Of a DNA stretch of 44,801 nucleotides, positions 1 through 42,454 are shown piece after piece. Source of the stretch: an uncultured Roseburia sp. (lineage in GTDB: Bacteria; Bacillota; Clostridia; Lachnospirales; Lachnospiraceae). The stretch covers positions 1-44,801 of the forward strand of contig CAMWKH010000027.1 in NCBI GenBank assembly GCA_947174805.1, given 5' to 3'. The translations under genes were made by a program, and so were the position numbers. The notes beneath the pieces were generated by a model. The model ran no database searches. It saw only the letters and a list, made by a program, of their open reading frames with translations, and was not told the DNA's origin. Position 1 is the stretch's first letter; each line of letters starts with the position of its first letter.

Positions 1-40
1 TATAAAAACTCATTTTAATCTCCATTATTATACACAATTT

Positions 41-436
41 TTACTCATTACTTAGCCAACATATTCCTTCATGAAATAGTACCCATATTTTCTTTTCTAT
101 AAGACTTATTATGATAATATCTGTTGAATAAAAAGCTTCTCCATACATAAATTGAAAATTTCTTACAAAACCATTCAATTCAGATGCATCCATTACAAAT
201 GGACCACAATTTTTCTCATAACAATAATCTGTAATTACAAAAAGTTGCCCACACATAATTGATAAATCTTGTAATAAAGTTAATGCTTGAATATCACTTA
301 ATTCCGTTTCTTCTCCAAATTTTACTTCTTTTTTTATATTAAAATACAGGTCATCCGCATCTACAAATGTTTTTCCAAACACTGCTTGCATGCTATGTTC
401 AAACTCTGCCCAGGCTATATTTTTAATAATAATCAC
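41..436 (-). CDS. Probable immunity protein of an orphan toxin tip
   Basis: Protein of 131 residues from a GTG start; no family was recognised with certainty. It is small, acidic and lacks a signal peptide, as expected for a cytosolic immunity protein. Its start overlaps by 14 nt the end of a start-less coding fragment (423-581) that looks like a toxin C-terminus, the usual toxin-immunity arrangement. The role therefore rests on context: it is the last gene of a run of toxin and immunity modules. The start is uncertain because the AGAAGGA ribosome site lies very close to the GTG. It could be an unrelated small protein, but nothing in it suggests an enzyme. Confidence 0.6.
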   Translation of the reverse strand: MIIIKNIAWAEFEHSMQAVFGKTFVDADDLYFNIKKEVKFGEETELSDIQALTLLQDLSIMCGQLFVITDYCYEKNCGPFVMDASELNGFVRNFQFMYGEAFYSTDIIIISLIEKKIWVLFHEGICWLSNE

Positions 437-581
437 ATCCTTCTATAAAATATTTTTCTACAACGCTCCATCCTCCACGTTCATTCCTATGCCGGATAGT
501 TACTTCTTCTTTTTGATGCCATCCTGGCTTTATTTCTTCAAAATTATCCGAGCTTCCACCTGCTGATCTTGAATTGTATAT
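423..581 (-). pseudogene. Orphan toxin C-terminal tip (no start codon)
   Basis: An open frame of 52 codons runs from just after an in-frame TGA (582-584) to a TAA at 423-425. It has no plausible start codon. The translation is hydrophilic with a glycine/serine-rich beginning (RSAGGSSDNF) and then a compact charged domain end (EEVTIRHRNERGGW), a composition typical of the end of a polymorphic toxin. It ends inside the start of the next immunity gene. It lies directly after the immunity gene at 600-1199, so it is probably a displaced or silent warhead left by recombination, as known for orphan tips in CDI and Rhs loci. The toxin activity is unknown. Confidence 0.55.
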
Positions 582-599
582 TCACAATCCCTCATAAAT

Positions 600-1199
600 T
601 TATAATACAAACATGCACTCCCCTTTTACATATTTTATTAGTATGTGTACTGGTCTGTTCCCGCTTAATATGTCCAGTATCTTCTCTATTTCTTCCTCTG
701 CACAAATCGCATCAATTTTATCTACATATAATGTGTTATACATATAAAATTCATCTATAGTTGGAAGTCCCGCCAATAAAGCCAATAGCTTCTCCATGCA
801 CATATCTTCGATTGAATTTGTATTACTGGAAATTTCCTGCAGTTCTTTTTCTATACTTTCATGTTCATCAAATGATATAACTTTTTTTTCTTTATAACAA
901 TTCAAAATTTTGTAATACCGACTTATCTCGAGTCTTTCTAAGCTCATCCAAAAATCGAAAAAAAAGGATTTTTCTCCATTTAATATACAAATCATTTCAC
1001 GTATTTCTTGTATCAAATTCTCATTATATATATCTTCATCTTGCAACTCAGAAATAAACGGATATATTTTTAACAATTCTAATTTCCTGAATGCATTGGT
1101 ATTAAGGCATTCTTCAAATGCTTTTTTAATATCCTGATAAAATCTTTTTTCCTCAATTTTTCCCGTCAAAAATTCTTCCAGCATTTCTTTAAAATTCAT
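600..1199 (-). CDS. Cognate immunity protein of toxin 1
   Basis: Protein of 199 residues, acidic, predicted mostly helical, cytosolic, with no signal or membrane segment. An AGGAAGG ribosome site precedes the ATG, and only 13 nt separate it from the toxin 1 stop, so the two are co-translated. The N-terminus (LEEFLTGKIEEK) and C-terminus (IKYVKGECMFVL) resemble the 231-residue protein at 2171-2866 (LNQYFKGELSREE; IAYIKGKPYLSL), so both appear to be members of one immunity family. The immunity function is inferred from position, as is usual for polymorphic toxin loci. The family itself was not recognised by name. Confidence 0.65.
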   Translation of the reverse strand: MNFKEMLEEFLTGKIEEKRFYQDIKKAFEECLNTNAFRKLELLKIYPFISELQDEDIYNENLIQEIREMICILNGEKSFFFDFWMSLERLEISRYYKILNCYKEKKVISFDEHESIEKELQEISSNTNSIEDMCMEKLLALLAGLPTIDEFYMYNTLYVDKIDAICAEEEIEKILDILSGNRPVHILIKYVKGECMFVL

Positions 1200-1212
1200 A
1201 AAATCATCCTTC

Positions 1213-1962
1213 CTACTTATGACTCCAAATATCCCCTGTCTTTATATTTTTCCAATAATGAACCTCTACATTTCTTCCATCTGGCGTTCTCCATGTTTCC
1301 ATTACTTTTTTCCATTCATTGCTTTTAAAAGATTTCCCTTGACTTCTGATAAAATCCTTAAAATCTTCACTTTTAACATTTCTGGTATCACGCCTTGTAC
1401 ATTCTGACCCTGCAGGTACTTCCTTTTTTCCTTTTTGATAATAATTTGATAAATCCCCTCCGCTCTTATCTTGTTTCCAAAACTCAATCCCTTTCTCAAC
1501 CTTTCCGCCTTCCCCTGACTTCATCGCAGCCGCAAGCAATGCGGCCATACTCCCAATACCCAGTACCGCCTCTCCCAAACCAGCTGCTTCCACTGCACCT
1601 GCCATTGTCCCGCCTGAAGTCCCTGCAGTCACAATAGACGGGATGCTGCTTGATATCCCGCCAGCCGCAGCTATCAAATCCGCTCCGGCAAGCAGCCCTG
1701 CAAATACCACGGCTCCCGCTGCTGCCCCCTGAAATTCCTTAACTGTTCTCTCCAGATAAAATTGACTCCAGCTCCTGTCACGTCCGGCAGACCTGTCACT
1801 GTCCAGCGTTTTCGTATAACTGTGTGACGAAATGGCGGCTCCTCCCAGGACACACCCCACCCCGGCAATAGGCAGTGTTGCTCCTGCTGTAAAAAAAGCT
1901 CCAACCACACCTACGACAATGCATATACCTCCCAATACTCCCAGTACCGCAGTATCCACCAT
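1213..1962 (-). CDS. Polymorphic toxin 1, shared hydrophobic body with unique C-terminal tip
   Basis: Protein of 249 residues from the ATG at 1962; the frame stays open to a GTG at 1995. Residues about 4-35 form a hydrophobic glycine/alanine segment. The next 120 residues include a conserved block (SYTKTLDSDR, SQFYLERT) and a second glycine/alanine-rich stretch ending MKSGEGG. This body is shared with toxin 2 at 3237-4223. The C-terminal 85 or so residues are different and hydrophilic, with a motif WRTPDGRNVEVHYWKN that recurs in bacterial toxin ends, although the activity could not be named. Immunity gene 600-1199 follows at once. Unlike toxin 2, its N-terminal leader is encoded by a separate, out-of-frame ORF (1970-2143). 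Likely cargo of the contractile apparatus upstream. Confidence 0.72.
   Translation of the reverse strand: MVDTAVLGVLGGICIVVGVVGAFFTAGATLPIAGVGCVLGGAAISSHSYTKTLDSDRSAGRDRSWSQFYLERTVKEFQGAAAGAVVFAGLLAGADLIAAAGGISSSIPSIVTAGTSGGTMAGAVEAAGLGEAVLGIGSMAALLAAAMKSGEGGKVEKGIEFWKQDKSGGDLSNYYQKGKKEVPAGSECTRRDTRNVKSEDFKDFIRSQGKSFKSNEWKKVMETWRTPDGRNVEVHYWKNIKTGDIWSHK
1507..1648. repeat. Toxin-body repeat, copy 1
   Basis: This stretch inside toxin 1 is almost identical to 3564-3705 inside toxin 2. By eye there is one mismatch in roughly 140 positions before the two copies start to diverge at each side. It encodes the end of the glycine/alanine-rich body, immediately before the point where the toxin tips become unrelated. 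The DNA identity is much higher than in flanking homologous parts, as expected for recent gene conversion or for a recombination site that allows tip exchange. Confidence 0.85.
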
Positions 1963-1969
1963 GCTTATA

Positions 1970-2143
1970 TTATTCCTCCGCCACACTATTTGCACTTTGC
2001 TTAACAGTTATTGATACCGGCTCTTCTGAATAAAAATCAAATTTATTCTCCAACCTTTTCATTATAATTTTTGTTTCCGAAATATTCGTTTGTTCTACAC
2101 TTATAGCATTTCCTTTTTCAACTAAGAGTTTATGTTCTGACAT
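1970..2143 (-). CDS. Small leader ORF upstream of toxin 1
   Basis: A 57-codon ORF with a strong ribosome site (TTGGAGGATTAA before the ATG). The product is charged and soluble, with no membrane segment, and starts MSEHKLLVEKGNAISVEQ. It ends at a TAA 7 nt before the ATG of toxin 1, and its last codons contain the GGAGG (1975-1979) that probably serves toxin 1. Toxin 2 has a leader of similar size fused in frame to the same body. This ORF may be the matching leader or adaptor domain of toxin 1, either a natural separate polypeptide or split by a frameshift. Similarity between the two leaders is not obvious by eye. Confidence 0.6.
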   Translation of the reverse strand: MSEHKLLVEKGNAISVEQTNISETKIIMKRLENKFDFYSEEPVSITVKQSANSVAEE

Positions 2144-2170
2144 TTAATCCTCCAATTTAGAAAACACATC

Positions 2171-2866
2171 CTATAAGAAAATCAAAGACAAATATGGTTT
2201 ACCTTTTATATATGCAATGGACACTCTAAAAAAAGAATCTCCCAAAATACAATCTAAAAGTTTTCTTAAATTGGGTAAAAAATTTTCCTTACTTATCGAT
2301 GTTCCTCCAACATAAATTCCAACACTTTGCCTAAAATCTGCAATTTCTTCCTCTATATTAATATTCTCAGCAATAATTCCTTTAATATGACATTCTAACA
2401 AGCCAATTAAAGTTTGCACATCTTTTATGTTCTTGTTTTTCTTATAATATGCTACTAACTCACTTATTACTTCTGGTGAAATATTATCTTTATCTACTTT
2501 TTCAATAGTATTCCTTAATTGTGCATATATTTTTTGACTGTTTATATATTGTTCCTTCTTGTACAAACCCTCGTATATTTTAATATTGAATGTGTAATAT
2601 ATATCCCTCTTTCCTTCTAGTATTTCCAAAATTTCTTGAACTTCCTTTTCAGTACAAGGATATTCTTCTGTTATATCATTGGGTATAACATGAAATGTGG
2701 AAATTGTTTTTAAAAAGTGATATACTTGCAATTTTTCTAGTTGAATATATTCACCTTTCATCAATTCATAGTATAACTTCATAGCCCATAGGCCCAACTC
2801 TTCCCTTGATAATTCTCCTTTAAAATACTGGTTTAGCTTTAATTCCAAATTTTTAGCATTCATCAT
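2171..2866 (-). CDS. Orphan immunity protein, paralogue of the toxin 1 immunity gene
   Basis: Protein of 231 residues, probably cytosolic, lysine- and glutamate-rich. It resembles the 199-residue immunity protein at 600-1199 at both ends (KGELSREELG near residue 16; IAYIKGKPYLSL at the end). It has no toxin gene of its own: the gene upstream (2916-3230) is already the immunity partner of toxin 2. Extra immunity genes of this sort are thought to protect against toxins of relatives or to be left after toxin replacement. Start could be 2866 or the next ATG at 2863; a GAGG lies about 9 nt upstream. Confidence 0.55.
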   Translation of the reverse strand: MMNAKNLELKLNQYFKGELSREELGLWAMKLYYELMKGEYIQLEKLQVYHFLKTISTFHVIPNDITEEYPCTEKEVQEILEILEGKRDIYYTFNIKIYEGLYKKEQYINSQKIYAQLRNTIEKVDKDNISPEVISELVAYYKKNKNIKDVQTLIGLLECHIKGIIAENINIEEEIADFRQSVGIYVGGTSISKENFLPNLRKLLDCILGDSFFRVSIAYIKGKPYLSLIFL

Positions 2867-2915
2867 ACTGAAAAAACCTCATCATCCCCTGTCTTTATTT
2901 TTAAAAATAAATTCC

Positions 2916-3230
2916 TTAAAAATCAGAATACTCTGCCCACTGAAAATCTGTTTCCTCCCAGTGTTCTTTCCAGGAAACCTTTTCTAAATATTCTTTTATT
3001 GTATCTTCTAACGCTTCCTCCTCCGTTTTGCCAAATCCTACTGCGCCTTCAAAGCTGCCAGATTCATCTATAACATGGATATTTGTATATCCCACATACA
3101 AATTTTCTTTCTCTTGAAATATTTTAATCTTAAATTTTCCATAAGGACTTTTTTCTAATTCCCAAATATCATATTCACCAACTAATTTTTCGATTTTTGC
3201 AATTCCTTCACACCTAATGTTTTTCCACAT
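2916..3230 (-). CDS. Cognate immunity protein of toxin 2
   Basis: Protein of 104 residues, small and acidic, with a central beta-rich part and a helical stretch (TEEEALEDTIKEYLEK), ending in an aromatic/acidic tail. The ribosome site GGAAAGG lies within the last codons of toxin 2, and only 6 nt separate the genes, so the pair is coupled. The acidic surface would suit binding to a basic nuclease-like toxin tip. Function is inferred from position, size and charge; the exact immunity family was not identified. Confidence 0.65.
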   Translation of the reverse strand: MWKNIRCEGIAKIEKLVGEYDIWELEKSPYGKFKIKIFQEKENLYVGYTNIHVIDESGSFEGAVGFGKTEEEALEDTIKEYLEKVSWKEHWEETDFQWAEYSDF

Positions 3231-3236
3231 ATTGCA

Positions 3237-4223
3237 TCACCTTTCCAATCCAAACGTTAGTATCTTTCCATCCGAATCAATTGTAATATATTTCCCGTTT
3301 TTTGTATATGTTTTTGCTCCAGGTGTTCCTTCTTTAGGATATGATACCCTGGCTCTTTTCAAATTTTTGCTAAACTCCTTGGCTTTTCTAACATATTGAT
3401 TAATATCCTTTGCACCAACCTCCTGTCCATGTTTATTAAAATGATATTTCAAAGAATCCTCTATGGAATCAAAAGTCCCTTTACTCCATATATCTTTACT
3501 AGCATCAGAAATATCAGCATTAGAATCTTTCTTTTCAATACCAACCCCTTCCTTACTCTCCCCGCCTTCCCCTGACTTCATCGCAGCCGCAAGCAATGCG
3601 GCCATACTCCCAATACCCAGTACCGCCTCTCCCAAACCAGCCGCTTCCACTGCACCTGCCATTGTCCCGCCTGAAGTCCCTGCAGTCACAATAGATGGAA
3701 TACTGCTTGATATCCCCCCGGCCATACCTATCAATTCATAACCGGAAAGCAGGCCCGCAAATACCACAGCTCCCGCTGCTGCACCTTTAAACTCCCCTGC
3801 CGTCCTCTCCAAATAAAATTGTGCCCAGCTACGTTCTCTCCCCGCTGCCCTGTCACTGTCAAGAGTTTTCGTATAACCATATGACGAAATGGCAGCTCCG
3901 GCCAACACACAACCCAGCCCTAAAAGGGGCGTTGCCGCACCAAATGACATAAAAGTAGCAACCACGCCTGCGACAATGGCTACGCCTGCCAATACCCCCA
4001 GTACGATAGTATCCGCCATGCTTATATAATACATGGTATCCGCTTTCTCTTCCACCAATTTTTCATGCAGGAAATCCTTAATAGGTTCAAAAAAATCTTC
4101 CGCTGAGGTTTTTATCACCATATGGCTTCCAAAAAGATGAATCTCACCGCCCTCCATACTAAGGACCGTAAGCCCGCACCCTGGTTCTGCCACTGTATAG
4201 GTTTTCCTAAAAATATCAGACAT
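3237..4223 (-). CDS. Polymorphic toxin 2 with leader, hydrophobic body and nuclease-like tip
   Basis: Protein of 328 residues in three parts. Residues 1-65 form a leader (MSDIFRKTYTVAEPGCGL). Residues about 66-225 are the glycine/alanine-rich body shared with toxin 1, with two hydrophobic segments. The last 100 residues are a unique basic tip. The tip carries a pattern often seen at toxin ends, YHFNKHGQEVGAKDINQYV followed by basic strands and ITIDSDGKILTFGL, suggesting a BECR-type RNase fold; this is inference. Immunity gene 2916-3230 follows. Upstream lies the tube gene with three hairpins between them. There is no Sec signal, consistent with loading into the contractile device rather than Sec export. 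Confidence 0.75.
   Translation of the reverse strand: MSDIFRKTYTVAEPGCGLTVLSMEGGEIHLFGSHMVIKTSAEDFFEPIKDFLHEKLVEEKADTMYYISMADTIVLGVLAGVAIVAGVVATFMSFGAATPLLGLGCVLAGAAISSYGYTKTLDSDRAAGRERSWAQFYLERTAGEFKGAAAGAVVFAGLLSGYELIGMAGGISSSIPSIVTAGTSGGTMAGAVEAAGLGEAVLGIGSMAALLAAAMKSGEGGESKEGVGIEKKDSNADISDASKDIWSKGTFDSIEDSLKYHFNKHGQEVGAKDINQYVRKAKEFSKNLKRARVSYPKEGTPGAKTYTKNGKYITIDSDGKILTFGLER
3564..3705. repeat. Toxin-body repeat, copy 2
   Basis: Partner of 1507-1648, at a constant offset of 2057 nt and in the same orientation. It encodes the part of the toxin body that directly precedes the variable tip. Direct repeats this close could recombine and delete everything between them, which would put the toxin 1 tip on the toxin 2 leader. 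Confidence 0.85.
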
Positions 4224-4230
4224 ATCTGCC

Positions 4231-4344
4231 GCCTTTCCTTTGTATTTATCCAGGCCATTTTCTGAAAAATAGCCTGGATAAATACAAATCCCTGGACAGG
4301 GATTTTATTTTCAGGGAAAGGCACGTCTACTGACATGCCTTTCC
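4231..4344 (-). promoter_or_regulatory. Triple hairpin between tube and toxin 2, with possible Shine-Dalgarno switch
   Basis: Three hairpins sit end to end in the tube-to-toxin gap. Hairpin 1 pairs 4315-4327 with 4332-4344 (13 bp, one G-U). Hairpin 2 pairs 4286-4294 with 4297-4305 (9 bp). Hairpin 3 pairs 4239-4255 with 4272-4288 (17 bp perfect). None is followed by a clear U-run. The presumed toxin ribosome site GGAAAGGC (4231-4238) is the same 8-mer as one arm of hairpin 1, so the other arm could instead pair with it and block translation. The structures may separate abundant tube synthesis from scarce effector synthesis. Confidence 0.7.
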
Positions 4345-4361
4345 TCTCCTGCATAAAACCC

Positions 4362-4790
4362 TTAAGCGCCGATATAGCCGCCCTCAATCTCGATTTTATC
4401 CAGCTTATCTTTTTTCTGTTTAATGGTAATGGTAAACTGTCCGATACCGTCGCTGTTAGAAAAATCTTCTTTATAATCCACTACGAAAGCCCGGGGGAAA
4501 CTGTACTTCCTCTCCACAAGCCCTGCATTTAATATCTCAACTTCCACCTGGCGGTAAGCCAAAGCTTCCTCCGCCGGAACCACTGACCACAGGGCAAGCT
4601 GCCTGGTGCTGTCAAAGGGATCCCCGTCTGTGGAAACAAGAATCTTTCCGGAAATTTCTAAGGTACTTCCCACGTCTTTTGTCCTGGCATTGGAATCCAA
4701 TGGGATATCCGTGCGGAATTTTATTTTCTGCACACACTCTTTTGCAATTTCAAAACTAGATGCTCCGTTTACTGTTACACGTAATGACAT
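4362..4790 (-). CDS. Hcp-like tube protein, second copy
   Basis: Protein of 142 residues, all-beta in appearance, of the family of small Clostridia proteins starting with an RVTVNG-type strand and containing IPLDSNAR, WSVVP and KQKKDK motifs. These resemble tail-tube/Hcp proteins of contractile injection systems; some databases carry the misleading name membrane-associated protease for this family. It is a clear paralogue of 4804-5229: the SNAR, ALWSVVP, AYRxVxV, FVxxY and IKQKKD positions match. Two tube-type subunits next to the sheath suggest a main tube protein and a variant for the tip or terminator end. The start lies 13 nt after the first copy. Confidence 0.72.
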   Translation of the reverse strand: MSLRVTVNGASSFEIAKECVQKIKFRTDIPLDSNARTKDVGSTLEISGKILVSTDGDPFDSTRQLALWSVVPAEEALAYRQVEVEILNAGLVERKYSFPRAFVVDYKEDFSNSDGIGQFTITIKQKKDKLDKIEIEGGYIGA

Positions 4791-4803
4791 ATGTACTCAC
4801 CTC

Positions 4804-5229
4804 CTATTCGCTGAATCCGCCTTCAATTTTTGTCATCTTGGTTAAATCTTTTTTCTGCTTCACATGGAGATAAAATGCTCCCACGCCTGTCTCGTCGTCG
4901 AGCTCCTCCTCATACTCCATCACAAATGCATTGGGAAGGGTAAACTGCCTTACAATCTGCCCTGCTGCAACCACATCCACTTTTACATTGCGGTAAGCGT
5001 CTGCGCTCTCACTGGGCACCACGCTCCATTTTGCCATGTTAATGGTGGCATCCTGTGCCTCTGCCCCAAGGGAAAAAAGAAGCTTGCCCCGGATTTTTAA
5101 GGCTGTGCCGTTATCTGTTGCCCTGGCATTGGAATCCTTTGGAATATCAGAAAAAAATTCCACACTGGTTACACACTGTTCTGTCAGGTTCACTGGACCT
5201 GAGCCGTCAATCGTTACTCGAAAACCCAT
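4804..5229 (-). CDS. Hcp-like tube protein, first copy
   Basis: Protein of 141 residues with the same layout as its neighbour 4362-4790: IPKDSNARATD near residue 30, KWSVVPSE near 68 and VKQKKDLTKM near the end. A strong AGGAGGG ribosome site precedes the ATG, in keeping with a protein needed in many copies. It lies between the sheath gene and the second tube gene, the normal sheath-then-tube order of contractile tails, T6SS and extracellular injection systems. There is no signal peptide. Assignment rests on family resemblance and order. Confidence 0.75.
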   Translation of the reverse strand: MGFRVTIDGSGPVNLTEQCVTSVEFFSDIPKDSNARATDNGTALKIRGKLLFSLGAEAQDATINMAKWSVVPSESADAYRNVKVDVVAAGQIVRQFTLPNAFVMEYEEELDDETGVGAFYLHVKQKKDLTKMTKIEGGFSE

Positions 5230-5264
5230 AAACTGTTCCCTCCTGTCATCTACCTGTTTTTTCT

Positions 5265-7448
5265 TTATACACCTGTCACACGGTTAATCTGGACTTCCAG
5301 ATTTCTCGGACTGCCGTTAAAGGACAATGTCAGCTCACAGATTCCATTGTCTTCGTTGATGTCATACTCTACGCTGTCCCCCTCTGCGATAATTGCATTG
5401 ATACAATCCTTTTTTGACAGCCACTTACTTTTCTGGCTCCTGGGGTTGTTGGAAAAGAAATCTTTGATATTATCTTCCTTGAAATCTCCCGTCACATACC
5501 TTAGAATCCGTTCCATGTAAGTTGTGACCTGTGTTTTATATACCGGCTCATAAGTGGAATGTTCGGAATCGTATAAAAGGTTCCTGGCCTTATAAACCGT
5601 TATATTCGTTATTGCCATCCCATTTGCGGATGCATTTTCGGAAGCAAAAACCCAGCCAAAATTCTTCTGGTTTATCTGGGTCTTAATTGTATTTGTAAAG
5701 CCGGTTATCTCCTTTGGCATTGTGGTGTAGGCCATCAGAGAATTATTTCCCGCCTCTATGTCAAACCTTACCCCCGGCAGTTCCAAATCTGTTTTTGCCT
5801 TTGTTGTAATAAAATGATTCTTTATATATTCGGGGCACTGGCATGCTGCCCGGAAACCTGCCGCCACATAGGCGCCGCTGATATAAACCCCTTCTATCCA
5901 AAGCCGGATGACATCCTCCTTGGCCTCGGAGAGTTCCACCCCATTGTCATCCGTGACATGCATTCTGCTGTCTAATACCACCCCGGATTTATTCTTGGGA
6001 AGTATGGTGAAATTCGGCAGCACAGGTATGGCAAACTCACTGTAGGGTTTCCCCATAAGGGGTGCGCACCGCTCCATGATTTTTTCCACGCCCTCCGCCG
6101 CTAAGGCGTTGAAAGTTGTCTCCTCCCGGTTCTCAAAGGAAAAAAATGTCTCCACCCGGTAATCCTTAAAGACGTTTAGCAGTATGCTTAAGGATTCCAT
6201 GCTGTACACATCGGTTCCCGCCTTTTTTACATTTCCCTGGAATCGCTCTCTGTGGATTTTGTTGGTCACATTCTGGCTCCAGGACACATTGGGATAAATA
6301 GCGTACCATATCGTATCATTAAAATTGTTCTTGCTGTTTGTGGTATTTAAGAATGTAATGAGCCGGGGAATATTTGGGCTCTTTGCCAATATGTCCGGGG
6401 AAATATTGGCCACAACAAGGGTGGGCGCCATGCCTTTTGTCTTTGTTTTATACTGGTCAAAAAACATGCGGATTCCCAACAGTTTTTCTACCAGGGGTTT
6501 TACCACTTTAATAAAGTTGTCTTTTGACGTGCGGTAAAATTCCAGATAGGAATTATAATTTGCCACTTCCGTCTCCACGTCGATTTCCGTTGGAGTGGTT
6601 GCCGTTAAGGGACAGAAGGTGCGCACTACCAGATTCTGCACGTAGTTGTTGGGAGATTCGTTCACCGACTGGTAATCCTCCGCCAACACTTCCACAAGGC
6701 CTGCTGTAACCTCATCATCTACCACCGCCAGACTTGTGGATTCCTCCTTGGGCGCTTCTAAAATTTTCAGTTCCCCATTCTCACCCATGGTGAGAAGACC
6801 TGCCACAACGCCTTTTCCCTTATCCTTCTCGCCGCCGCCTCCCAGCAAAAGCCTTGTCTTGATATCCTCGATTGCCAGGGGAAGCATGGCCATAATATTG
6901 TTATAATTCTTGCTGGCGTCCTCAAAAAGTAAATTCAGCTTGTCCCCCAAATCCAGTTTTGCAGGATCTCCGTCTTCCAGAGCTGCGTATTTACTGTAAT
7001 TGAACTGGATTTCTTTCCTTACCAGCTTGATATCCTCCATAACTTTCTTCGGCGATATCATTTCCAGCAGCTTTTCAAAATGAAACTCCACATTTAAAAG
7101 CCCCTGGGCTTTTCTGGAATCCATCACTGTTAAAATCGTCTTAAAAAAACTGTCATAGTCATTTAAATTGATCGGTGTCAGCATAGACGGTGGAATATTT
7201 TCCGGGCGCTCCAATGTATACTTCACCGACTGGGAACCCGCGTCAAAAAATGACCACACCGTAGGCTCAAACTTCCGCTCCATTTCCTCATAGCTGTGGC
7301 ACTCCAAATGCTGGTTGATTTCCCGCATCTGGTCGTCGCTTAAACTGTCCAGACCCTTTACATCCCCCACTAACGTGAGAAGATCCATTTTGTCCGGATT
7401 AATCATATCAAGGAGAAGCGTGCGGTTTGTCTGATTGATTATCTCCAT
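5265..7448 (-). CDS. Contractile sheath-like protein (T6SS TssB/TssC-type)
   Basis: Protein of 727 residues without signal peptide or membrane segment. The N-terminal 210 residues (LLLDMINPDKMDLLTLVGDV onward, then FFDAGSQSVKYTLERPENIP) resemble the part corresponding to TssB. A low-complexity acidic/glycine linker near residue 205 follows. From about residue 270 to the end it looks like a TssC-type large sheath subunit, with a C-terminal pair of beta strands (ELTLSFNGSPRNLEVQINRV) suited to the strand exchange that links sheath subunits. T6SS normally uses two sheath proteins; this looks like one fused polypeptide. It is followed by two tube genes and preceded by the VWA gene. The family assignment is by pattern and context. 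Confidence 0.7.
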   Translation of the reverse strand: MEIINQTNRTLLLDMINPDKMDLLTLVGDVKGLDSLSDDQMREINQHLECHSYEEMERKFEPTVWSFFDAGSQSVKYTLERPENIPPSMLTPINLNDYDSFFKTILTVMDSRKAQGLLNVEFHFEKLLEMISPKKVMEDIKLVRKEIQFNYSKYAALEDGDPAKLDLGDKLNLLFEDASKNYNNIMAMLPLAIEDIKTRLLLGGGGEKDKGKGVVAGLLTMGENGELKILEAPKEESTSLAVVDDEVTAGLVEVLAEDYQSVNESPNNYVQNLVVRTFCPLTATTPTEIDVETEVANYNSYLEFYRTSKDNFIKVVKPLVEKLLGIRMFFDQYKTKTKGMAPTLVVANISPDILAKSPNIPRLITFLNTTNSKNNFNDTIWYAIYPNVSWSQNVTNKIHRERFQGNVKKAGTDVYSMESLSILLNVFKDYRVETFFSFENREETTFNALAAEGVEKIMERCAPLMGKPYSEFAIPVLPNFTILPKNKSGVVLDSRMHVTDDNGVELSEAKEDVIRLWIEGVYISGAYVAAGFRAACQCPEYIKNHFITTKAKTDLELPGVRFDIEAGNNSLMAYTTMPKEITGFTNTIKTQINQKNFGWVFASENASANGMAITNITVYKARNLLYDSEHSTYEPVYKTQVTTYMERILRYVTGDFKEDNIKDFFSNNPRSQKSKWLSKKDCINAIIAEGDSVEYDINEDNGICELTLSFNGSPRNLEVQINRVTGV

Positions 7449-7498
7449 GTTCTTTCACTCCCTTGTACTGGTAATATTTACTTAAACCCGTCCAAATT

Positions 7499-9310
7499 CT
7501 AATACATCTCCGACGGTTTTAAATCTTTATACTGAAACGTCAGTTCACTAATCTCATCCTCAAAGGTAATATCCACTTTTGATTCTGTAAAAAGCTGGTA
7601 ACTCTTCTTTTTCATAAGTATCTCCCCGCTTTTCATAATGCAGCAATCCGACTGATTTGTTAAAATAATGCTCCTTCCCTGTCCGGAGCTTAAGTAGATA
7701 TTCTCCGCTCCCAAAAAATGCTCTTTAATGCCGCAGTTTTCCAGTATTTCCGCTATGGAAACCACCCGGTTAGCAGGCAGACGGAACAGGTCGTAGGCCA
7801 AAGGGCTTATGTCATAACCCGACTTTGTCCTGGTTATATATATGTTAAGCCTTCCCACATAACTGGAATTTGAGGATACAGGACGGTTTGGCTCTTCCGG
7901 TGCAAATCCTGTCCTGGGCTTCTTTCTCCTGCATAAAAGCAGAATTATCAATATGAGAAAAAGTGCCCCCAAAACAACTCCGCCATACAGCTCATATGGC
8001 GGAGGCTCCGGCTCTTCTACCGGAAGTAATTCCGGCCCTTTCAGTGAAACTTCCACACCCTCTATATCCAATACATTTGCAGGAAAAGCCTCAAAGGCAA
8101 AAGAGACATGTTTCACAGAATCCTCCCTCACCTTTTCCGTGACCAAAATCTCCCCTGCCTCCAATGCTTTTTCTTCCTCTCCCTTTTCTGTGAGAAAAGA
8201 CACTTTGCTGTGGTTAAAATATTCTTCTGTCCACAATCGAAGGCTTTCATTTTCTGCGTCGTAAAAGCCATAGGCAATCTCCGCCACTCTCTCGTAGTAA
8301 AGTGCCCCTTCCTCATTTGGAACACTGTCTTTATAAGTAACATCCGCCTTTGCCTTAACCTGATATTCCGGTATCAGCGTAATCCTCACCTGGTTTCCAG
8401 GCGTCCCCTCAAAACTGATATCTAATTTGTCCCCTTTGGGACGAGTTATCTCTATGAGGGAATAACGCTCCCCGCCTATCTGCCTGGCACTTTCCGCCGA
8501 AAAATTTGTCTTTAAATTGCCTATCGGGGAATCGCTGGTTAAAAGTACCCGTACAGTGCCTGCATGGGCAAAAGCCATGTCAATCGTTAGGTTTTCTTCT
8601 TTTTCCCCGGCATCCACGATAGCCGCCGTCATCTGTTTAATGTGCAGTTGTCCTTCTGTAATGGAATCAATAGATTTCTGTATATCCAACGCCTGAGGGG
8701 AATAGTAAACGCCGCCGCCGGTCTTTTTTGCTGCCTGAAAAATGGAATTTCCCGTATCTTCCATCTCTTCCCCGAGACCGATAACATGAATCCTGATTTT
8801 ATTTTCCGCCGCCTCTAAAACTGCCCTCTGATAGATTTCTTCTGACAGGGAGGTGGTTTCCTCATCCTCCATCAAAATCTCCCCGTCGGAAAGGAGTACA
8901 ATCTCTTTTTCCTCTGCATTGGAATTTTTCAGCATTAAAACTGCCTCATCAAGCCCTGCCCCTGCATTGCTGTAACCATTGTACGCAACAGCCTGTGCCG
9001 CCTCCATAATCCTGCTTCTCTGGGAATTGCCTAAAAAGCCCTGAAGCGCACAAATTTCAGAGCTGTATGCCGCAAAACCCACATCATAGTTTGTGGGCAG
9101 GGTATAGATAAGCTGTGCAATGCTGTCAATGGCATAACGGTTGGGGTCGTTGGTCTTCATGCTTCCGCTGACATCCAATACAAACACCACTGCTTTTTGT
9201 CCATATCCTTTTTCCTCAGATGCCTGTGCCGGGAAGGGTGCCAGGGCAAAAACATGGAAAATCAGTATAACCATAAGAAACTTGCCGAGAGTCTTTTTCT
9301 TGTTTTTCAC
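7499..9310 (-). CDS. Membrane-anchored von Willebrand A protein, first gene of the injection-system operon
   Basis: Protein of 603 residues from a GTG start with GGGAGGA upstream. Residues 1-30 are a signal peptide ending AQA. A VWA domain follows with a MIDAS motif DVSGS at 46-50 and LLSDGE near 140. A beta-rich region comes next, then one membrane segment near residue 445 (YGGVVLGALFLILIILLLC) with RRKK after it. The last 115 residues are therefore cytoplasmic and form an unrecognised beta-rich domain. It is the first gene before sheath and tube, so it may anchor the device in the membrane or sense surface contact. This role is inference. No clear promoter was found in 9311-9466. Confidence 0.8.
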   Translation of the reverse strand: MKNKKKTLGKFLMVILIFHVFALAPFPAQASEEKGYGQKAVVFVLDVSGSMKTNDPNRYAIDSIAQLIYTLPTNYDVGFAAYSSEICALQGFLGNSQRSRIMEAAQAVAYNGYSNAGAGLDEAVLMLKNSNAEEKEIVLLSDGEILMEDEETTSLSEEIYQRAVLEAAENKIRIHVIGLGEEMEDTGNSIFQAAKKTGGGVYYSPQALDIQKSIDSITEGQLHIKQMTAAIVDAGEKEENLTIDMAFAHAGTVRVLLTSDSPIGNLKTNFSAESARQIGGERYSLIEITRPKGDKLDISFEGTPGNQVRITLIPEYQVKAKADVTYKDSVPNEEGALYYERVAEIAYGFYDAENESLRLWTEEYFNHSKVSFLTEKGEEEKALEAGEILVTEKVREDSVKHVSFAFEAFPANVLDIEGVEVSLKGPELLPVEEPEPPPYELYGGVVLGALFLILIILLLCRRKKPRTGFAPEEPNRPVSSNSSYVGRLNIYITRTKSGYDISPLAYDLFRLPANRVVSIAEILENCGIKEHFLGAENIYLSSGQGRSIILTNQSDCCIMKSGEILMKKKSYQLFTESKVDITFEDEISELTFQYKDLKPSEMY

Positions 9311-9466
9311 CTAGAATTCCTCCCAAAAATAAACATTTGGAATATCTTTCCTTTTCTGAATAAAAAAAGCTTATCATTTTTCGTCGAAAATTTTCTTTTT
9401 GTGTCAAAAACAGGAAATAAGATGTAAAAATTACTTTATGGTCAGAACATAAATGAGAGAAGCGCA

Positions 9467-9509
9467 ATAAAAAAACCGGGGAAGAAACCAACGGTTTCTC
9501 TCCGGTTTT
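9467..9509 (-). terminator. Rho-independent terminator of the FNT-kinase-reductase operon
   Basis: On the minus strand an AACCGGAGAGAAACC arm, GTT loop and GGTTTCTTCCCCGGTT arm are followed by a run of T. It lies just after the stop of the aldo/keto reductase, separating that operon from the VWA gene. Confidence 0.85.
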
Positions 9510-9523
9510 GTCATAACCATCTT

Positions 9524-10666
9524 CTATTTTCCAGATACCTTCGCCAATGCATCCATCTCCCTCTGCACCCGCTTCAAATCCTTGCGGATACTGATTTTCT
9601 GGGGACATGCCGCCTCACATTTACCGCACTCCACGCAGTTTAAGGGCCTTAATTCTGCCCTCAGTTCATTGTTCCATCTGGACAGAGTATCCCTTACATT
9701 ATTGTACATATGATAGGCATTCCATATCTTAAAACTTCCCGGAATATCCACCCCCTTCGGACATGGCATACAATAACGGCAGGCGGTACAGCCGTTTTGA
9801 ACCCTGGCCCGGATGGCTGCAGAGACACGCTGCACAACCCCCTGCTCCTCCTGGCTTAAAGGCTGAAATTGTCCAAAGGTTTTTAAATTGTCCCTCACCT
9901 GGGACATATCTGACATCCCGCTTAGAATCACCTTCACATTGGGAAATGTCCCCACATAGCGAAGGGCCCAGGAAGATGCCGTATCCCCCGGCCGTCTTTC
10001 CTTAAAAATCCCTGTGATGTCCTCCGGAAGATTTGCCAGAGAGCCTCCCTTCACCGGCTCCATTACAATAACAGGAATCCCAAGCTCTTCTGCCAGGGCA
10101 ATCCCCTTATCCGTAGCCTGGGTATCCTTATCCATATAGTTAAACTGAATCTGGCAGAAATCCCAGCTATGGGATGTAATAATTTCCCGAAAAGTATCGT
10201 AATCGTCATGGAAAGAAAATCCCAGATAGCGAATCTTTCCCTGGGCCTTAAGGCTTTCAAAATATTCGAGAATTTTTAACTCTTTTACCTGCTTCCACCT
10301 GTGTCTGTCCAGGGCGTGCATGAGATAGAAATCCACATAATCTTTATCCAGGCGGCTTAACTGCTCCTGAAAAATTCTCTCTGCATCCTCTAAGGACGAC
10401 ACCGACCAAACCGGCAGCTTAGTGGCAAGATAGTAAGACTCTCTGGGATACCGGCTCAAAGCCTCCCCGGTAAGGGACTCACTTGTGCCCCCATGATAGG
10501 GATACGCCGTGTCAAAATAGTTCACCCCATTCTGATAAGCCTCCTCAATCATGGCGAATGCCTGTTCCCTGTCAATACCTCCGTCTGCACGCACAGGAAA
10601 ACGCATACAGCCAAATCCCAGCAGGGACACTTTGACCCCAATTTTTTCCATCCTGCGATACTCCAT
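9524..10666 (-). CDS. Aldo/keto reductase with C-terminal ferredoxin domain
   Basis: Protein of 380 residues, cytosolic. The N-terminal 270 residues are an aldo/keto reductase barrel with the catalytic set visible: FDTAYPYHG (Asp, Tyr), LATKLPVW (Lys) and FYLMHALD (His). The last 100 residues hold two cysteine clusters, CTACRYCMPCP and CVECGKCEAACP, typical of two 4Fe-4S sites. This architecture is common in anaerobes and suggests electron flow between ferredoxin-type clusters and a carbonyl substrate; the substrate cannot be read from the sequence. It is the last gene of an operon with a hybrid kinase and an FNT transporter, starting 27 nt after the kinase. Confidence 0.9.
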   Translation of the reverse strand: MEYRRMEKIGVKVSLLGFGCMRFPVRADGGIDREQAFAMIEEAYQNGVNYFDTAYPYHGGTSESLTGEALSRYPRESYYLATKLPVWSVSSLEDAERIFQEQLSRLDKDYVDFYLMHALDRHRWKQVKELKILEYFESLKAQGKIRYLGFSFHDDYDTFREIITSHSWDFCQIQFNYMDKDTQATDKGIALAEELGIPVIVMEPVKGGSLANLPEDITGIFKERRPGDTASSWALRYVGTFPNVKVILSGMSDMSQVRDNLKTFGQFQPLSQEEQGVVQRVSAAIRARVQNGCTACRYCMPCPKGVDIPGSFKIWNAYHMYNNVRDTLSRWNNELRAELRPLNCVECGKCEAACPQKISIRKDLKRVQREMDALAKVSGK

Positions 10667-37860: not shown

Positions 37861-38499
37861 TCATTTCTCCCCGTTAGAAATAGAACAATACAGCATCTGA
37901 AAGCCATACTCTAAAAACTGGATTTTGGAAAATCCCATTGTTCTTTTAATATATTCCTCTTTATTTGCCGCAAGCTGAATAATCCCGGACAGCATACCCC
38001 AAAAATTAAAAATAGTCGGCATAATTTCCAAATTATGGCGAAAATCACCTTTCTCCATTCCAGATATTAAGAACTCCTTTATCTTTTCGTTGATATCTTC
38101 CCCTATTTGAAAAGTTTCTTTCTCTTCAGGCAGATAATCCTGACCCTCAAAATCAATATTGATTTTATCCAATACCATTTTGAAGTAATATGGAAATTCT
38201 TCTTGGTAGTGAATTAGCCCACGACAAATAAAATAGTATCTTTCTTCTGTGGTTTCCTGCTGCTCTAATGCAGAAGCTATATAATTGTAAAGTTTTTTCA
38301 TGCTATCCAGCACTAAAATACCAACAATTTCATCTTTGTTCTCAAAATACACATATAAAGTGGCTTTGCTATATCCGGCTGCCTTTGCTATATCGTCCAT
38401 AGATGTTGCCGCGATACCTCTTTCCATAAACAGTACCGATGCCGCAGAAGCAATTTTTTCCCGGTGTACGCTTTTTGGCTCTTTTTTTCTCCGTCCCAT
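37861..38499 (-). CDS. TetR-family transcription regulator
   Basis: Protein of 212 residues. The N-terminal helix-turn-helix is typical of the family: SMDDIAKAAGYSKATLYVYF around residue 33-52. The remainder is a helical ligand-binding domain. It precedes the exporter module's regulator by 79 nt on the same strand, so it may affect that module as well as itself. A palindrome lies at its own predicted transcription start (38517-38533), suggesting self-repression. Confidence 0.92.
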   Translation of the reverse strand: MGRRKKEPKSVHREKIASAASVLFMERGIAATSMDDIAKAAGYSKATLYVYFENKDEIVGILVLDSMKKLYNYIASALEQQETTEERYYFICRGLIHYQEEFPYYFKMVLDKINIDFEGQDYLPEEKETFQIGEDINEKIKEFLISGMEKGDFRHNLEIMPTIFNFWGMLSGIIQLAANKEEYIKRTMGFSKIQFLEYGFQMLYCSISNGEK

Positions 38500-38516
38500 T
38501 TCCTGTCTCCTTTTAA

Positions 38517-38561
38517 TTGAACTTAGAGTTTAATCATAGTGATTTCATGGCACTCTGTCAA
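38517..38561 (-). promoter_or_regulatory. TetR gene promoter with overlapping operator-like palindrome
   Basis: On the minus strand TTGACA (38556-38561), 17 nt spacer and TATGAT (38533-38538). From 38517 to 38533 lies TTGAACTTAGAGTTTAA, an inverted repeat of the form TTnAACTnnnAGTTnAA around the predicted start site. It is a good place for the TetR protein to bind and block its own gene. Confidence 0.65.
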
Positions 38562-38595
38562 CTGTTATTTGTTCCTACTGGGTAACATGAGGGCA

Positions 38596-38643
38596 TAAAA
38601 AGCGGCGTTCCTGTTCTCCCATGCAGGGATAGAGAAACGCCGC
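38596..38643 (-). terminator. Terminator after the Ntn-hydrolase gene
   Basis: GCGGCGTT (38602-38609) pairs with AACGCCGC (38636-38643), followed on the minus strand by TTTTTATG. It lies about 85 nt beyond the stop of 38729-39799. The inner loop can also pair partly (CCCTGCATGGGAG). Confidence 0.75.
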
Positions 38644-38728
38644 GTCTGCATCATATTCCGTTTTCTTTTTTCATACTGTGCTGGTATTGGGGTTTGCAGG
38701 ATTCCGGGGCATATCAAGGTTTTTTGAG

Positions 38729-39799
38729 CTAATCAACCATATTCATTCTAAAATCTATGATATTATTTTCATTTCTATGCGCCCATATTTTTCCTGACAT
38801 ATCTGTTAAATTATAAATAACAGACCATTGTAATTTATCAAAACCATCTTCTTCATAAACTCCTACTTCATTTAGCAAGTGAATCGTATCATTCGTATTA
38901 AGTGAATTGTTACTGTCTTCTATTTTATTTACAACTTTATCATATCGCTGGAATTCCGTGAATCCTTCACCAATATTCAAATCATTGTATGCAACAAAAT
39001 TAGAAGCAGCTTGATATTCTTTATCCGTTTCAACAACCTGTAAATCATGATCATAATATTCTACAATTACCGATTTCCCTGTGCTGTCTGCTATCAAATA
39101 ATGGCAGTAAATATCTCCGGAAAAATAGATATTATAATTTTTTAATAATTCTATTGCTTCATCAACATTGGAAGCCTTGTCCAAAACTAATCTTATAGCC
39201 GTTGTTGTATTAAGTGTTACTTTATTTTCATCTTTTCTAATTTGTACTTCTGGAACTGCAAGTAAAGCTATTGCCACACCTTTTTCATTCATTCCATCAA
39301 AGGGAAGATAAGGCCCAGCCAGCGTTAAAAAATTATTAAAACTGACACCATCCGTTGGTAAATTATCTTCTGAATAACCGGCAAAAGATAAATTTACAGT
39401 AGATACAGATGCATATCCATCTGGGGGATTTGTATATAATTGCATTGATGGTGCATAAGTAAAATCAAAGTTTCTGGCAAAAATAATATCTCCATTTTCA
39501 TTTTTTGTTACAAAAGCAGTACATCCACTCTCTGTAACATTAAATTTAATTGGAATGCCTTTCAATAATCTTTTCGTAACAAATTCTTCTATGTCTTTAT
39601 CACTTGCAGCACCTTGTTCTAAAAAGTCATCAAAACCATAATCACCATAATAAGTCATTCTATACATTCCATAGTTATCAATTTGTTTTATCGTTTTTAA
39701 AGTTTTAAGTTCATTAACAAATAAAACAAATAACATAATGATGATACAAGCCAATAAGGATAAAACAATAATCAGACTTATCTTTCGTTTCTTTTTCAT
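38729..39799 (-). CDS. Membrane-anchored N-terminal-nucleophile amide hydrolase (choloylglycine hydrolase superfamily)
   Basis: Protein of 356 residues from the ATG at 39799. One membrane segment (about 8-28) is followed by a helical part, then the Ntn domain beginning at Cys93 in ESGCTAFVT. RNFDFTYAP follows about 17 residues later, the Arg/Asp pair of the family. Bile salt hydrolases and penicillin V acylases are near relatives, but the N-terminal extension and anchor match the linear amide C-N hydrolase group (acid ceramidase-like). Self-cleavage before Cys93 would free the catalytic domain outside the cell; this is inference. Substrate unknown. Its own promoter is at 39850-39878. Confidence 0.82.
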   Translation of the reverse strand: MKKKRKISLIIVLSLLACIIIMLFVLFVNELKTLKTIKQIDNYGMYRMTYYGDYGFDDFLEQGAASDKDIEEFVTKRLLKGIPIKFNVTESGCTAFVTKNENGDIIFARNFDFTYAPSMQLYTNPPDGYASVSTVNLSFAGYSEDNLPTDGVSFNNFLTLAGPYLPFDGMNEKGVAIALLAVPEVQIRKDENKVTLNTTTAIRLVLDKASNVDEAIELLKNYNIYFSGDIYCHYLIADSTGKSVIVEYYDHDLQVVETDKEYQAASNFVAYNDLNIGEGFTEFQRYDKVVNKIEDSNNSLNTNDTIHLLNEVGVYEEDGFDKLQWSVIYNLTDMSGKIWAHRNENNIIDFRMNMVD

Positions 39800-39849
39800 A
39801 TACCACACCCCTGCAAATACCCGCTCTCTCGACCTGATTTTATTCCTCC

Positions 39850-39878
39850 ATTATACACGGAACCATAGATTTTTTCAA
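39850..39878 (-). promoter_or_regulatory. Promoter of the Ntn-hydrolase gene
   Basis: TTGAAA (39873-39878), 17 nt spacer and perfect TATAAT (39850-39855) on the minus strand, about 50 nt before the start codon at 39799. Confidence 0.75.
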
Positions 39879-39993
39879 TGATTAGCTTATCCCCGCTCCT
39901 GCTTATATCTTCAAATCCAGCTTTACACCAACTTATCCTTTCCGAGATTGGAAATCAGACAGCACAACGCCGATAGCGCCGGACAGTAAAAAC

Positions 39994-40527
39994 CTATTTC
40001 TGCTTTATCTCCTGAATAAAATTATGAATCACTCGTTTCTTCATCATCAGAGCAACACCCATTCCAACGAGAACTACTGCCGCCACACTCACAATCAACG
40101 GATGATAATTCTCACAAAAAACAGTCAAAAATTTAGTTACATCATCATTTATTGGTGCATTCCCCTGTAAATAAGCAAACGGGATGATTACCCATGCAAG
40201 CATTGAAACGATCGGGATAAGAACAAACACATAAGAAAAAATTCGATAGAATACTTTTGTACTATCCTTTTGGTACAACAAAATGTATAAGTAAGAAATA
40301 ATTAACGGAAATAAAGCACCGTTTGCATTCATACACATATCTGATAAATTCGTGTAACCGCCGCCAACTGCACTCACATGGGCTGTAAATATACTAAAAT
40401 CTGTTATTGTTCCTCCTACTGACAGTATCACTATCATATGACCAATTTCATGCAAAAGAATATATAAAAAAATTCCAATTCCTGCTGACAACAAAATATA
40501 TCCTATACTTTTGATTTTTTTATTCAT
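39994..40527 (-). CDS. M50-like membrane metallopeptidase
   Basis: Protein of 177 residues with about five membrane segments. The zinc-binding motif HEIGH lies within the first helix (LLHEIGHMIVILSVGG, near residue 26), as in site-2-protease relatives. It is shorter than typical S2P enzymes (about 350 residues) and lacks a visible PDZ domain. A second DG-type motif is not obvious, so activity is uncertain. It is at the end of the acetyltransferase operon, 57 nt after the preceding GNAT gene. Confidence 0.75.
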   Translation of the reverse strand: MNKKIKSIGYILLSAGIGIFLYILLHEIGHMIVILSVGGTITDFSIFTAHVSAVGGGYTNLSDMCMNANGALFPLIISYLYILLYQKDSTKVFYRIFSYVFVLIPIVSMLAWVIIPFAYLQGNAPINDDVTKFLTVFCENYHPLIVSVAAVVLVGMGVALMMKKRVIHNFIQEIKQK

Positions 40528-40584
40528 TGATTCCCACTTTCACAATCCCGGCTTTTTATATGCACTTTCCGTTAAAAAGAATTT

Positions 40585-41106
40585 TCACTTTAATTTTTTC
40601 CATTCTTCACGGGTTATGGCATATGCATATGAGATACCGTTCTTTTCATCCGGATATTCTTTTACTTTCTTCATACCGTTTGCAACTGCGGTAGAATAAG
40701 ACCCTACATTTGTATATTTCATGTAGGAATAGATTGTATCATACTGGGTGTTACGAAACACCCAATCTCTTACTGCACCAGCTGCTTCTTTTGCAAATCC
40801 TCTTCGCCAATATTTTTTGTGAATGTGGTATCCAATCTCTGGAAGCATTTCGTTATCTATATTCTGTATGGTAATACCACAATCTCCAATAAATTCTCCG
40901 CTTTCTTTTCGCACAACTGCCCAAAGACCAAATCCATACCTTTCGTAATTCTCTAAATTCCATGCAATCCACTCTTTTGTTCTTTGTTCGTCAAAGGGAG
41001 CAGGATAATGCTGCATAGTTTCCGGATCAGAAACGATTTCAAATAATGCATTAAAATCATCACGATTGTATTCTCTTAAAATAAGCCTTTCTGTTTCAAT
41101 TACCAT
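40585..41106 (-). CDS. GNAT acetyltransferase (RimJ/RimL type)
   Basis: Protein of 173 residues from the ATG at 41106, chosen because the RimJ/RimL opening ETERLILREYNRDD follows directly. The acetyl-CoA binding region is visible as RRGFAKEAAGAV near residue 105, and the C-terminus ends with NVGSYSTAVANGMKKV, typical of this subfamily. The start overlaps the end of the previous GNAT gene by 11 nt. Substrate could be a protein N-terminus, a small amine or an antibiotic; this is not decidable. Confidence 0.9.
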   Translation of the reverse strand: MVIETERLILREYNRDDFNALFEIVSDPETMQHYPAPFDEQRTKEWIAWNLENYERYGFGLWAVVRKESGEFIGDCGITIQNIDNEMLPEIGYHIHKKYWRRGFAKEAAGAVRDWVFRNTQYDTIYSYMKYTNVGSYSTAVANGMKKVKEYPDEKNGISYAYAITREEWKKLK

Positions 41107-41962
41107 TTTGTTTCTTCGCATCCTGTACCAGTAAATCCAAGGTATGAAATGCAATTCCCTGTCTGCGGTATTCCGGCGCCGTATACATATTCATAATATA
41201 AGCCTTTTTACCAGTTGGATTATGGTAGGTAGGCATAACCTGATAAAAACTCACGCCCCCTGCTCCAATAAACTTTTCGTTATCATATACTAGATATGCA
41301 ATATGCTCAAAGTTTTTCAAAGCCCGGTTATAATATGCATAAGATTCTTGCTCCACTACATTCATATCCTCATCATCTGACAACTTATTTGCTGCACGAA
41401 GGACAATAATTCTTGTTCTTACCAGTTCTTCAATATCTCCCAATGCTGCTTTTCTATATATAAATTTTCCTAATCTTCCATCATAATCAATATCTGCCGA
41501 GATTTTATGAAGTTCCTTTTCCATAATCTCATACGCAAGTATCACTTCATTATTTACCGGATAACGCTCATGCTTTACAGTAGCAAATCCCAGCTTTTCA
41601 TAAAGTGCTGCCGCAGGCAATGAGGCATCCAGGTATGCCTTATGGTATTTTTTGCTAATCTGAGCTTCAATATTTTTCATAATGAATGTGCCATAACCCT
41701 TTTTCTGGTATCTCGGCAATACATATACCCTTGTAATGTGATTGTCTGCAAAACAACCTGTTGCTACGATATTTCCATCTATCTTCAGCACGCTTACATA
41801 ACCATTTTTAATATCCTTTTCTATAGAATCCCCGCTGTGAAGCTCACAGAAAAAGTCAACTACTTCCCTTGGATAATACTTTGGGTATATTGATTTTATG
41901 GTGTGCTGCACGACATCGTACACAGCCTTCAAATCTTCTATTGTTGCTAATTCATATTCCAT
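41096..41962 (-). CDS. Tandem GNAT protein with incomplete second domain
   Basis: Protein of 288 residues from the ATG at 41962 (GGAGA upstream). Residues 1-145 are a complete GNAT domain with VYVLPRYQKKGYGTFIMKNI and an end near LYEKLGFATV. The second domain starts near residue 165 (FIYRKAALGDIEELV), has the acetyl-CoA loop MYTAPEYRRQGIA, and ends about 20 residues later without the last strands and the YEKxGF part. The C-terminus is thus cut, and the next GNAT gene begins within its final codons. This may be a deletion-fusion product. Confidence 0.82.
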   Translation of the reverse strand: MEYELATIEDLKAVYDVVQHTIKSIYPKYYPREVVDFFCELHSGDSIEKDIKNGYVSVLKIDGNIVATGCFADNHITRVYVLPRYQKKGYGTFIMKNIEAQISKKYHKAYLDASLPAAALYEKLGFATVKHERYPVNNEVILAYEIMEKELHKISADIDYDGRLGKFIYRKAALGDIEELVRTRIIVLRAANKLSDDEDMNVVEQESYAYYNRALKNFEHIAYLVYDNEKFIGAGGVSFYQVMPTYHNPTGKKAYIMNMYTAPEYRRQGIAFHTLDLLVQDAKKQNGN

Positions 41963-41978
41963 AATCTTTCTCCAAATC

Positions 41979-42422: not shown

Positions 42423-42454
42423 ATATCCAAAACATCTCCTTGTGGAAAATTCAT

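Follow-up and report, generated by a model that had tools for sequence, protein, structure and literature searches.

Genes of a probable spring-loaded toxin-injection machine, apparently uncharacterised, in a Gram-positive gut bacterium

Organization of the operon

The window, that is, the whole stretch of DNA analysed (44,801 nucleotides), is contig C27 of the genome of an uncultured Roseburia sp. (3.1 Mb, 68 contigs, 91.8% complete). Four genes near its beginning belong to an operon that almost certainly encodes a contractile injection system (CIS), apparently an uncharacterised, spring-loaded toxin-injection machine of a Gram-positive gut bacterium. We read it, with a probability of about 0.8, as a cell-anchored CIS of Firmicutes that is built like a type VI secretion system (T6SS) and forms its own lineage apart from T6SS i-iii and the extracellular CIS (eCIS). 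The original prediction had named a VWA protein, a 727-amino-acid (aa) protein, and two small paralogues in operon order, and all four were recovered in that order:

7499..9310, minus strand: VWA membrane protein with a signal peptide (by eye), a VWA domain (Pfam VWA, 3.6e-11), one transmembrane (TM) segment (by hydropathy), and a C-terminal domain of about 135 aa
5265..7448, minus strand: predicted single-chain contractile sheath protein, 727 aa (structure model)
4804..5229, minus strand: putative tube protein A, Hcp/TssD-like, 141 aa (TssD matches in aligned relatives, none for A alone; conserved position)
4362..4790, minus strand: putative tube protein B, Hcp/TssD-like, 142 aa (TssD E 0.0053, 17.1 bits, below the cut-off)

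Because the operon reads towards low coordinates and the contig terminates at base 1, the operon is cut off in the window. Its remaining genes were found, with their order kept, on another contig of this genome, C41, and they encode DnaJ, two FHA proteins, two PP2C-like proteins, a TssF-like protein, an Hsp70-like protein, VgrG, and a DUF4280 PAAR-like tip (C5, C18, C27, and C41 denote contigs of this genome; C9 to C13 and C20 denote operon genes and their proteins). Roseburia sp. 1XD42-69 carries a sheath identical to that of the window on contig NZ_RAZG01000017 (locus L047), where the genes from VWA to C11 and the Hsp70-like gene all match on a single contig, and its DNA matches C41:592-8039 with 99.5% identity. 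Since this continuous contig matches both C27 and C41, the two belong together and were left unjoined in the assembly.

The operon, which opens with the four window genes, comprises about 15 kinds of gene, arranged in Lachnospiraceae in the order VWA, sheath, tubes, DnaJ, FHA, FHA, PP2C, PP2C-like with a TM segment, C12, C11, Hsp70-like, C10, and spike modules, with some variation. The contig C41 proteins from DnaJ to C10 showed 54 to 89% identity with those of the closest relative, G184, and C13, VgrG, C20, and C9 showed 24 to 32% identity with relatives. Gene calls were naive (longest open reading frame), and opposite-strand calls, marked "x", were often spurious.

Sheath and tube proteins

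Structural searching with a model of the 727-aa protein, itself of moderate confidence, placed contractile-tail, CIS, or T6SS entries in the top 16 of 50 rows (Foldseek E 0.047). Phage, pyocin, and Anabaena rows aligned from sheath residues 1-7 to 539-720, whereas T6SS rows aligned only from 289-317 to 542-563, and none of the families listed in the 50 rows was a chain of TssB/VipA size. Searches by sequence alone (Pfam, PDB) gave nothing useful; a parvovirus NS1 match in PDB (about residues 570-613, profile search E 0.0043) was judged to be chance. VipB (PF05943) had no match in the source genome at E values up to 10, and 4 of 14 controls matched it, one of them over the cut-off. The model points with moderate confidence to a contractile sheath made of one chain rather than the separate TssB and TssC of T6SS i-iii. 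The original prediction of a fused sheath holds for the single chain; the fusion is not supported as worded, and the chain may be either a TssB-TssC fusion or a single chain of phage type, the phage-like rows running near full length and the T6SS rows being partial.

Tubes A and B are 43% identical. TssD (PF17642; cut-off 25.8 bits) matched 16 of 37 aligned tube relatives below threshold, with a best E of 0.001, and a Pelosinus tube-like protein reached 19.6 bits, also under the cut-off. The tube profile found no Hcp in PDB, its sole match being PmgG (E 1.5). The two proteins are weakly assigned as TssD-like tubes, in part from the TssD matches and for the rest from position and conservation. 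In the named genome collection, where the loci are the best 80 of 347 sheath-like stretches and many come from metagenome-assembled genomes, at least one tube was present in 74 of 75 loci and at least two in 70 of 75. A single tube was seen in each of the four Paenibacillus loci and in the diverged G068 locus, and none in L109, so that the two tubes once proposed as a mark of the lineage are common, not universal. Extended tube-domain proteins were observed in Pelosinus (L147:4827-5483, 219 aa) and Selenomonas (L114:18566-19288, 241 aa; L123:18845-19588, 248 aa), and these are possible cargo-carrying evolved tubes.

Baseplate, spike, and chaperone genes

Contig C41 carries a gene for a TssF/gp6-like baseplate wedge protein. 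Spike proteins of relatives matched Phage_base_V (1.4e-7) over the cut-off and Phage_GPD (1.5e-6) and DUF2345 (4.2e-4) under it, and DUF4280 was found in three relatives at 1.3e-14 to 8.2e-18; one G088 member of the VgrG cluster had no spike-family match. VgrG matches in the source genome lie on C41 (two), C5, and C18, the last with Phage_GPD at 7e-9, over the cut-off, and DUF4280 was found at C41:21365-21724 and again on C5, with a third, sub-threshold match. Spike genes expected elsewhere in the genome are therefore present, and the outcome that would have refuted the original prediction, a lack of spike and baseplate genes in every relative, was not seen. Together with the sheath model and the conserved operon, VgrG and DUF4280 bear out the proposed contractile injection core in a Gram-positive genome. 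Outlying VgrG modules with C13-, C9-, or C20-like genes were seen at C5 100000-119999, which also holds DUF4280 and effectors with the N-terminal domain described below, and at C18 1-12000.

The DnaJ protein has the HPD motif in 57 of 57 members. The protein of about 870 aa that we take to be Hsp70-like, going by the shapes of its motifs, carries DCGGGTTD in 17 of 17 members, with the first phosphate motif, in the form used here, and the third each in 12 of 17. Hidden Markov model (HMM) support was weak: PF00012 matched only three of the 17 proteins, with E values no better than 0.08, and the PDB match to BiP had an E of 0.048. SrfB weakly matched 2 of the 17 members (best E 0.07), and a family link is possible.

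Several T6SS parts gave no match. IcmF/TssM (PF06761) had none in the source genome at E values up to 10, with 4 of 14 controls matching and one over the cut-off; the genome is incomplete to the extent given above, and a diverged protein could escape detection as the sheath escaped VipB. TssE/gp25 (PF04965) had no match in the source genome, and its matches in Paenibacillus tyrfis and Pelosinus fall outside the locus stretches read. As for TssG and TssK, 13 C11 and three C10 proteins had no match to any T6SS Pfam family, and C12 and C11 gave scattered sub-threshold Pfam matches only. No ClpV-like AAA+ protein was found among the operon proteins scanned, a scan that covered the operon rather than the whole genome.

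Membrane and phosphorylation module

VWA was present in 71 of the 74 named loci whose upstream flank spans 2 kb or more, the exceptions being L089, L117, and L121, and two hydrophobic segments were found in 53 of 74 VWA relatives. Six-frame HMM searches of locus flanks found FHA1 in 60 of 65, FHA2 in 57, PP2C in 57, and DnaJ in 64. One or two TM segments occur in 55 of 56 FHA1 proteins and one in 101 of 104 PP2C proteins. Pfam matches in G184 were 6.9e-11 for FHA, 7.7e-9 for YscD-type FHA, 1.2e-9 for PP2C, and 6.3e-26 for DnaJ, while the second PP2C-like protein and its TPR-like part were below the cut-off. The proposed role of VWA as the membrane anchor is plausible in view of its signal peptide and TM segment; against it, VWA is one of four membrane-protein genes in the operon and is missing from three loci and from G068.

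The diverged G068 variant (28% identical) has a sheath, one tube, a VgrG-cluster protein, C12, C11, an Hsp70-like protein, C10, a C9-sized neighbour, and a DUF4280 protein, and no VWA, FHA, PP2C, or DnaJ gene was found in the stretch read. Going by this gene set, the Hsp70-like protein would be part of the core, and the membrane and phosphorylation module would have been gained or lost. By eye, the G068 locus (L034/L035, 12765-35292 of the joined stretch) is flanked by GTPase-like and large surface-protein-like genes.

The machine could instead be a released particle of eCIS or tailocin type, freed by lysis, with VWA, FHA, and PP2C as mere regulators. A cytoplasmic CIS mediating cell death in Streptomyces (PMC10066040, in excerpt) and a contractile bacteriocin active on a Gram-positive bacterium (PMC10996793, in excerpt) are in print, the sheath aligns in a phage-like manner, and the family also has a DUF4280 cluster without this sheath. 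The system shares a contractile syringe with eCIS (Afp/PVC, AlgoCIS) and the Streptomyces CIS; it differs in its conserved membrane proteins, and Pfam found no LysM, AAA+ (Cis15), tape-measure, tail-fibre, or holin match among the operon proteins scanned, the cassette genes being partly covered. Tip-swapped effector cassettes beside the tube genes fit contact-dependent antagonism, and no viral relatives were found (both below). A released particle is therefore unlikely.

Distribution and phylogeny

Sheath relatives were found in 15 of 299 genomes of the family and in 13 of 398 genomes of the phylum, the latter from nine families. Named carriers include Roseburia, Lachnotalea, Lacrimispora, Anaerotruncus, Clostridium, Paenibacillus, Pelosinus, and Selenomonas; beyond Lachnospiraceae, the gene set is also found in other Clostridia, Paenibacillus, and Negativicutes. 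C12 was present in at least 42, C11 in at least 36, and the Hsp70-like gene in at least 40 of 60 loci; these are lower bounds because loci stop at the flank and inserted genes displace them. In a midpoint-rooted tree of 44 sheaths, seven Negativicutes formed one group (95/92) and the three Paenibacillus sheaths lay together by that root; the G068 branch was too long for good placement. The suggestion of a distinct lineage is supported; its adaptation to another envelope is not supported as worded, since the operon is not confined to monoderm cells and also occurs in Pelosinus and Selenomonas, which are diderm.

That the locus is a degenerate or domesticated prophage remnant encoding no machine is suggested by the phage-like folds, by the window itself, which holds sheath and tubes only, and by G675, in which one of the two pieces of the sheath contains a stop. 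Internal stops were found in 0 of 17 family sheath matches, gene order is conserved in the named loci, two isolates have full or nearly full sets, and 128 candidate stretches from viral contigs contained 0 sheath relatives, the annotated phage collection being outside this search. We regard a remnant as extremely improbable; the system is real, widespread, and probably functional.

DUF4280 was found in 6 of 6 named genomes tested and 0 of 14 controls. In the family sample it occurred in 14 of 15 sheath-positive genomes (the exception being G084) and 21 of 284 sheath-negative ones (Fisher p 8e-14). Since 21 of the 35 DUF4280-positive genomes have no match to this sheath, we rejected the view that the system accounts for every DUF4280 gene in the family. 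A DUF4280 cluster without this sheath, L152:8359-10071 (G278), hints at a separate eCIS-like system in Lachnospiraceae, and the gene two upstream in that cluster presumably resembles Pvc16/DUF4255.

Effector cassettes

Downstream of the tube genes, the window carries six further minus-strand genes:

3237..4223, minus strand: putative polymorphic effector with a conserved N-terminal part and a variable C-terminal tip (same N domain with another tip in L047)
2916..3230, minus strand: candidate immunity gene behind the first effector, 104 aa (position only)
2171..2866, minus strand: 231-aa cassette protein, candidate immunity or accessory (position, low G+C stretch)
1213..1995, minus strand: second putative effector, with the N domain of the first and another tip (N-domain HMM)
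600..1199, minus strand: candidate immunity gene behind the second effector, 199 aa (position only)
41..436, minus strand: candidate immunity gene nearest the contig end, 131 aa (position only)

G+C content is about 36% in window positions 1-4000 and about 45% in 4001-10000. The effectors, their tips, and their cassette neighbours matched no Pfam family over the cut-off (0 families for the 41..436 protein), and a sub-threshold holin match to the N domain (E 0.25) was judged to be chance. L047 has this N domain as well, but with another tip and another neighbour, and its DNA identity to the window ends at window position 3532, inside the gene; the shared stretch of the second effector has 81% DNA identity to L047. 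The N-domain HMM, built partly from the 1213..1995 protein itself, also found one L049 protein (1.3e-14) and two proteins beside the VgrG module on C5 (4.6e-6, 4.9e-4). A constant N domain with exchanged tip and neighbour is the pattern of polymorphic toxins, with immunity assigned by position only.

Proteins with phage lysozyme (1.1e-19) and C39 peptidase (1.8e-11) domains lie near lipoprotein-like genes in the P. tyrfis locus. Sub-threshold matches were Lipase_3 (0.034) on a Pelosinus DUF4280 protein and an AHH nuclease (0.0044) on that of G068. From cargo and cassette pattern, we infer that antagonism of other bacteria is the likeliest use, and cell-anchored antibacterial use is quite likely.

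The same genes weigh on whether the device is directed at the producer. A stress-fired cytoplasmic device that kills its own cell or affects differentiation would resemble the Streptomyces CIS linked to cell death (PMC10066040, in excerpt), and the PP2C/FHA set could act in stress signalling. However, the variable effectors beside candidate immunity genes, the cargo with a lysozyme domain close to lipoprotein-like genes in P. tyrfis, and the several VgrG modules all point to foreign targets, and we consider a self-directed device very unlikely.

Comparison with known systems and proposed mechanism

The system shares with T6SS i-iii a contractile sheath, an Hcp/TssD-like tube, VgrG, a PAAR-like tip, a TssF-like baseplate protein, polymorphic effectors beside candidate immunity genes, and signalling parts of FHA/PP2C/VWA type, which in T6SS are PpkA-PppA-Fha. 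It differs in having one sheath chain where T6SS i-iii has TssB plus TssC, in having an Hsp70-like protein and DnaJ, and in its Firmicutes hosts; VipB and IcmF/TssM gave no match in the genome, and no ClpV-like gene was found among the scanned operon proteins. The Francisella T6SS likewise has a DUF4280 PAAR-like tip, IglG (PMC5014421, in excerpt), whereas its host group and gene content differ and the sheath here is a single chain.

A 2016 commentary raised from DUF4280 alone the "fascinating possibility" of a Gram-positive phage-like translocation system (PMC5349215), and a 2021 survey, in the part available, offered similar speculation, reporting that Firmicutes Phage_GPD adjoins DUF4280 with no eCIS or T6SS genes nearby (PMC8651086). 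Our operon shares with that hypothetical system DUF4280 near Phage_GPD in Firmicutes, and unlike the loci in the available part of the survey it has sheath, tube, baseplate, and membrane genes. The portion of the main text of a 2025 metagenome CIS survey available contained 0 occurrences of "lachnospir", "firmicutes", "bacillota", or "clostridi" (PMC12210884). Titles and abstract openings, subscription papers and preprints excluded, gave no description of this operon, and one may be in print. The operon could account for some of the orphan spike-tip genes seen in Gram-positive bacteria since 2016, giving some orphan DUF4280 genes sheath, tube, baseplate, and membrane parts as well as named isolate carriers, among them Paenibacillus tyrfis, P. 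elgii, Lachnotalea glycerini DSM 28816, and Pelosinus fermentans JBW45.

For the cell-anchored CIS, we infer anchoring, firing, recycling, and targets as follows. Polymerisation of sheath and tube would take place in the cytoplasm, on a baseplate attached to the membrane through a platform in which VWA, FHA, and PP2C-TM proteins stand in for TssJLM. The VWA domain may sense or grip the cell exterior, and FHA and PP2C may control assembly or firing through protein phosphorylation, for which the threonine-phosphorylation pathway of T6SS offers an analogue. Contraction would inject the tube, tipped by VgrG/DUF4280 and carrying polymorphic toxins, into a neighbouring cell. The Hsp70-like protein and DnaJ may assemble parts or recycle spent sheath, and their replacing ClpV is a tentative proposal. 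Equally speculative is the broader picture of a further cell-anchored architecture of monoderm and diderm Firmicutes that might combine a VWA/FHA/PP2C platform for TssJLM, phosphorylation-linked firing, a VWA sensor facing outwards, and, in the place of ClpV, an Hsp70-like ATPase paired with its own DnaJ for assembly or sheath recycling. If the machine works, antagonism by injection would extend to gut and soil Gram-positive bacteria, and sheath turnover by a chaperone pair of Hsp70 type would be novel.

Other features

A DUF4279 protein (1.2e-9) is encoded at the beginning of contig C41. At the opposite end of the window, positions 38001-44801 have a low G+C content (34-38%) and several acetyltransferase-like genes, and may be a separate acquired region.
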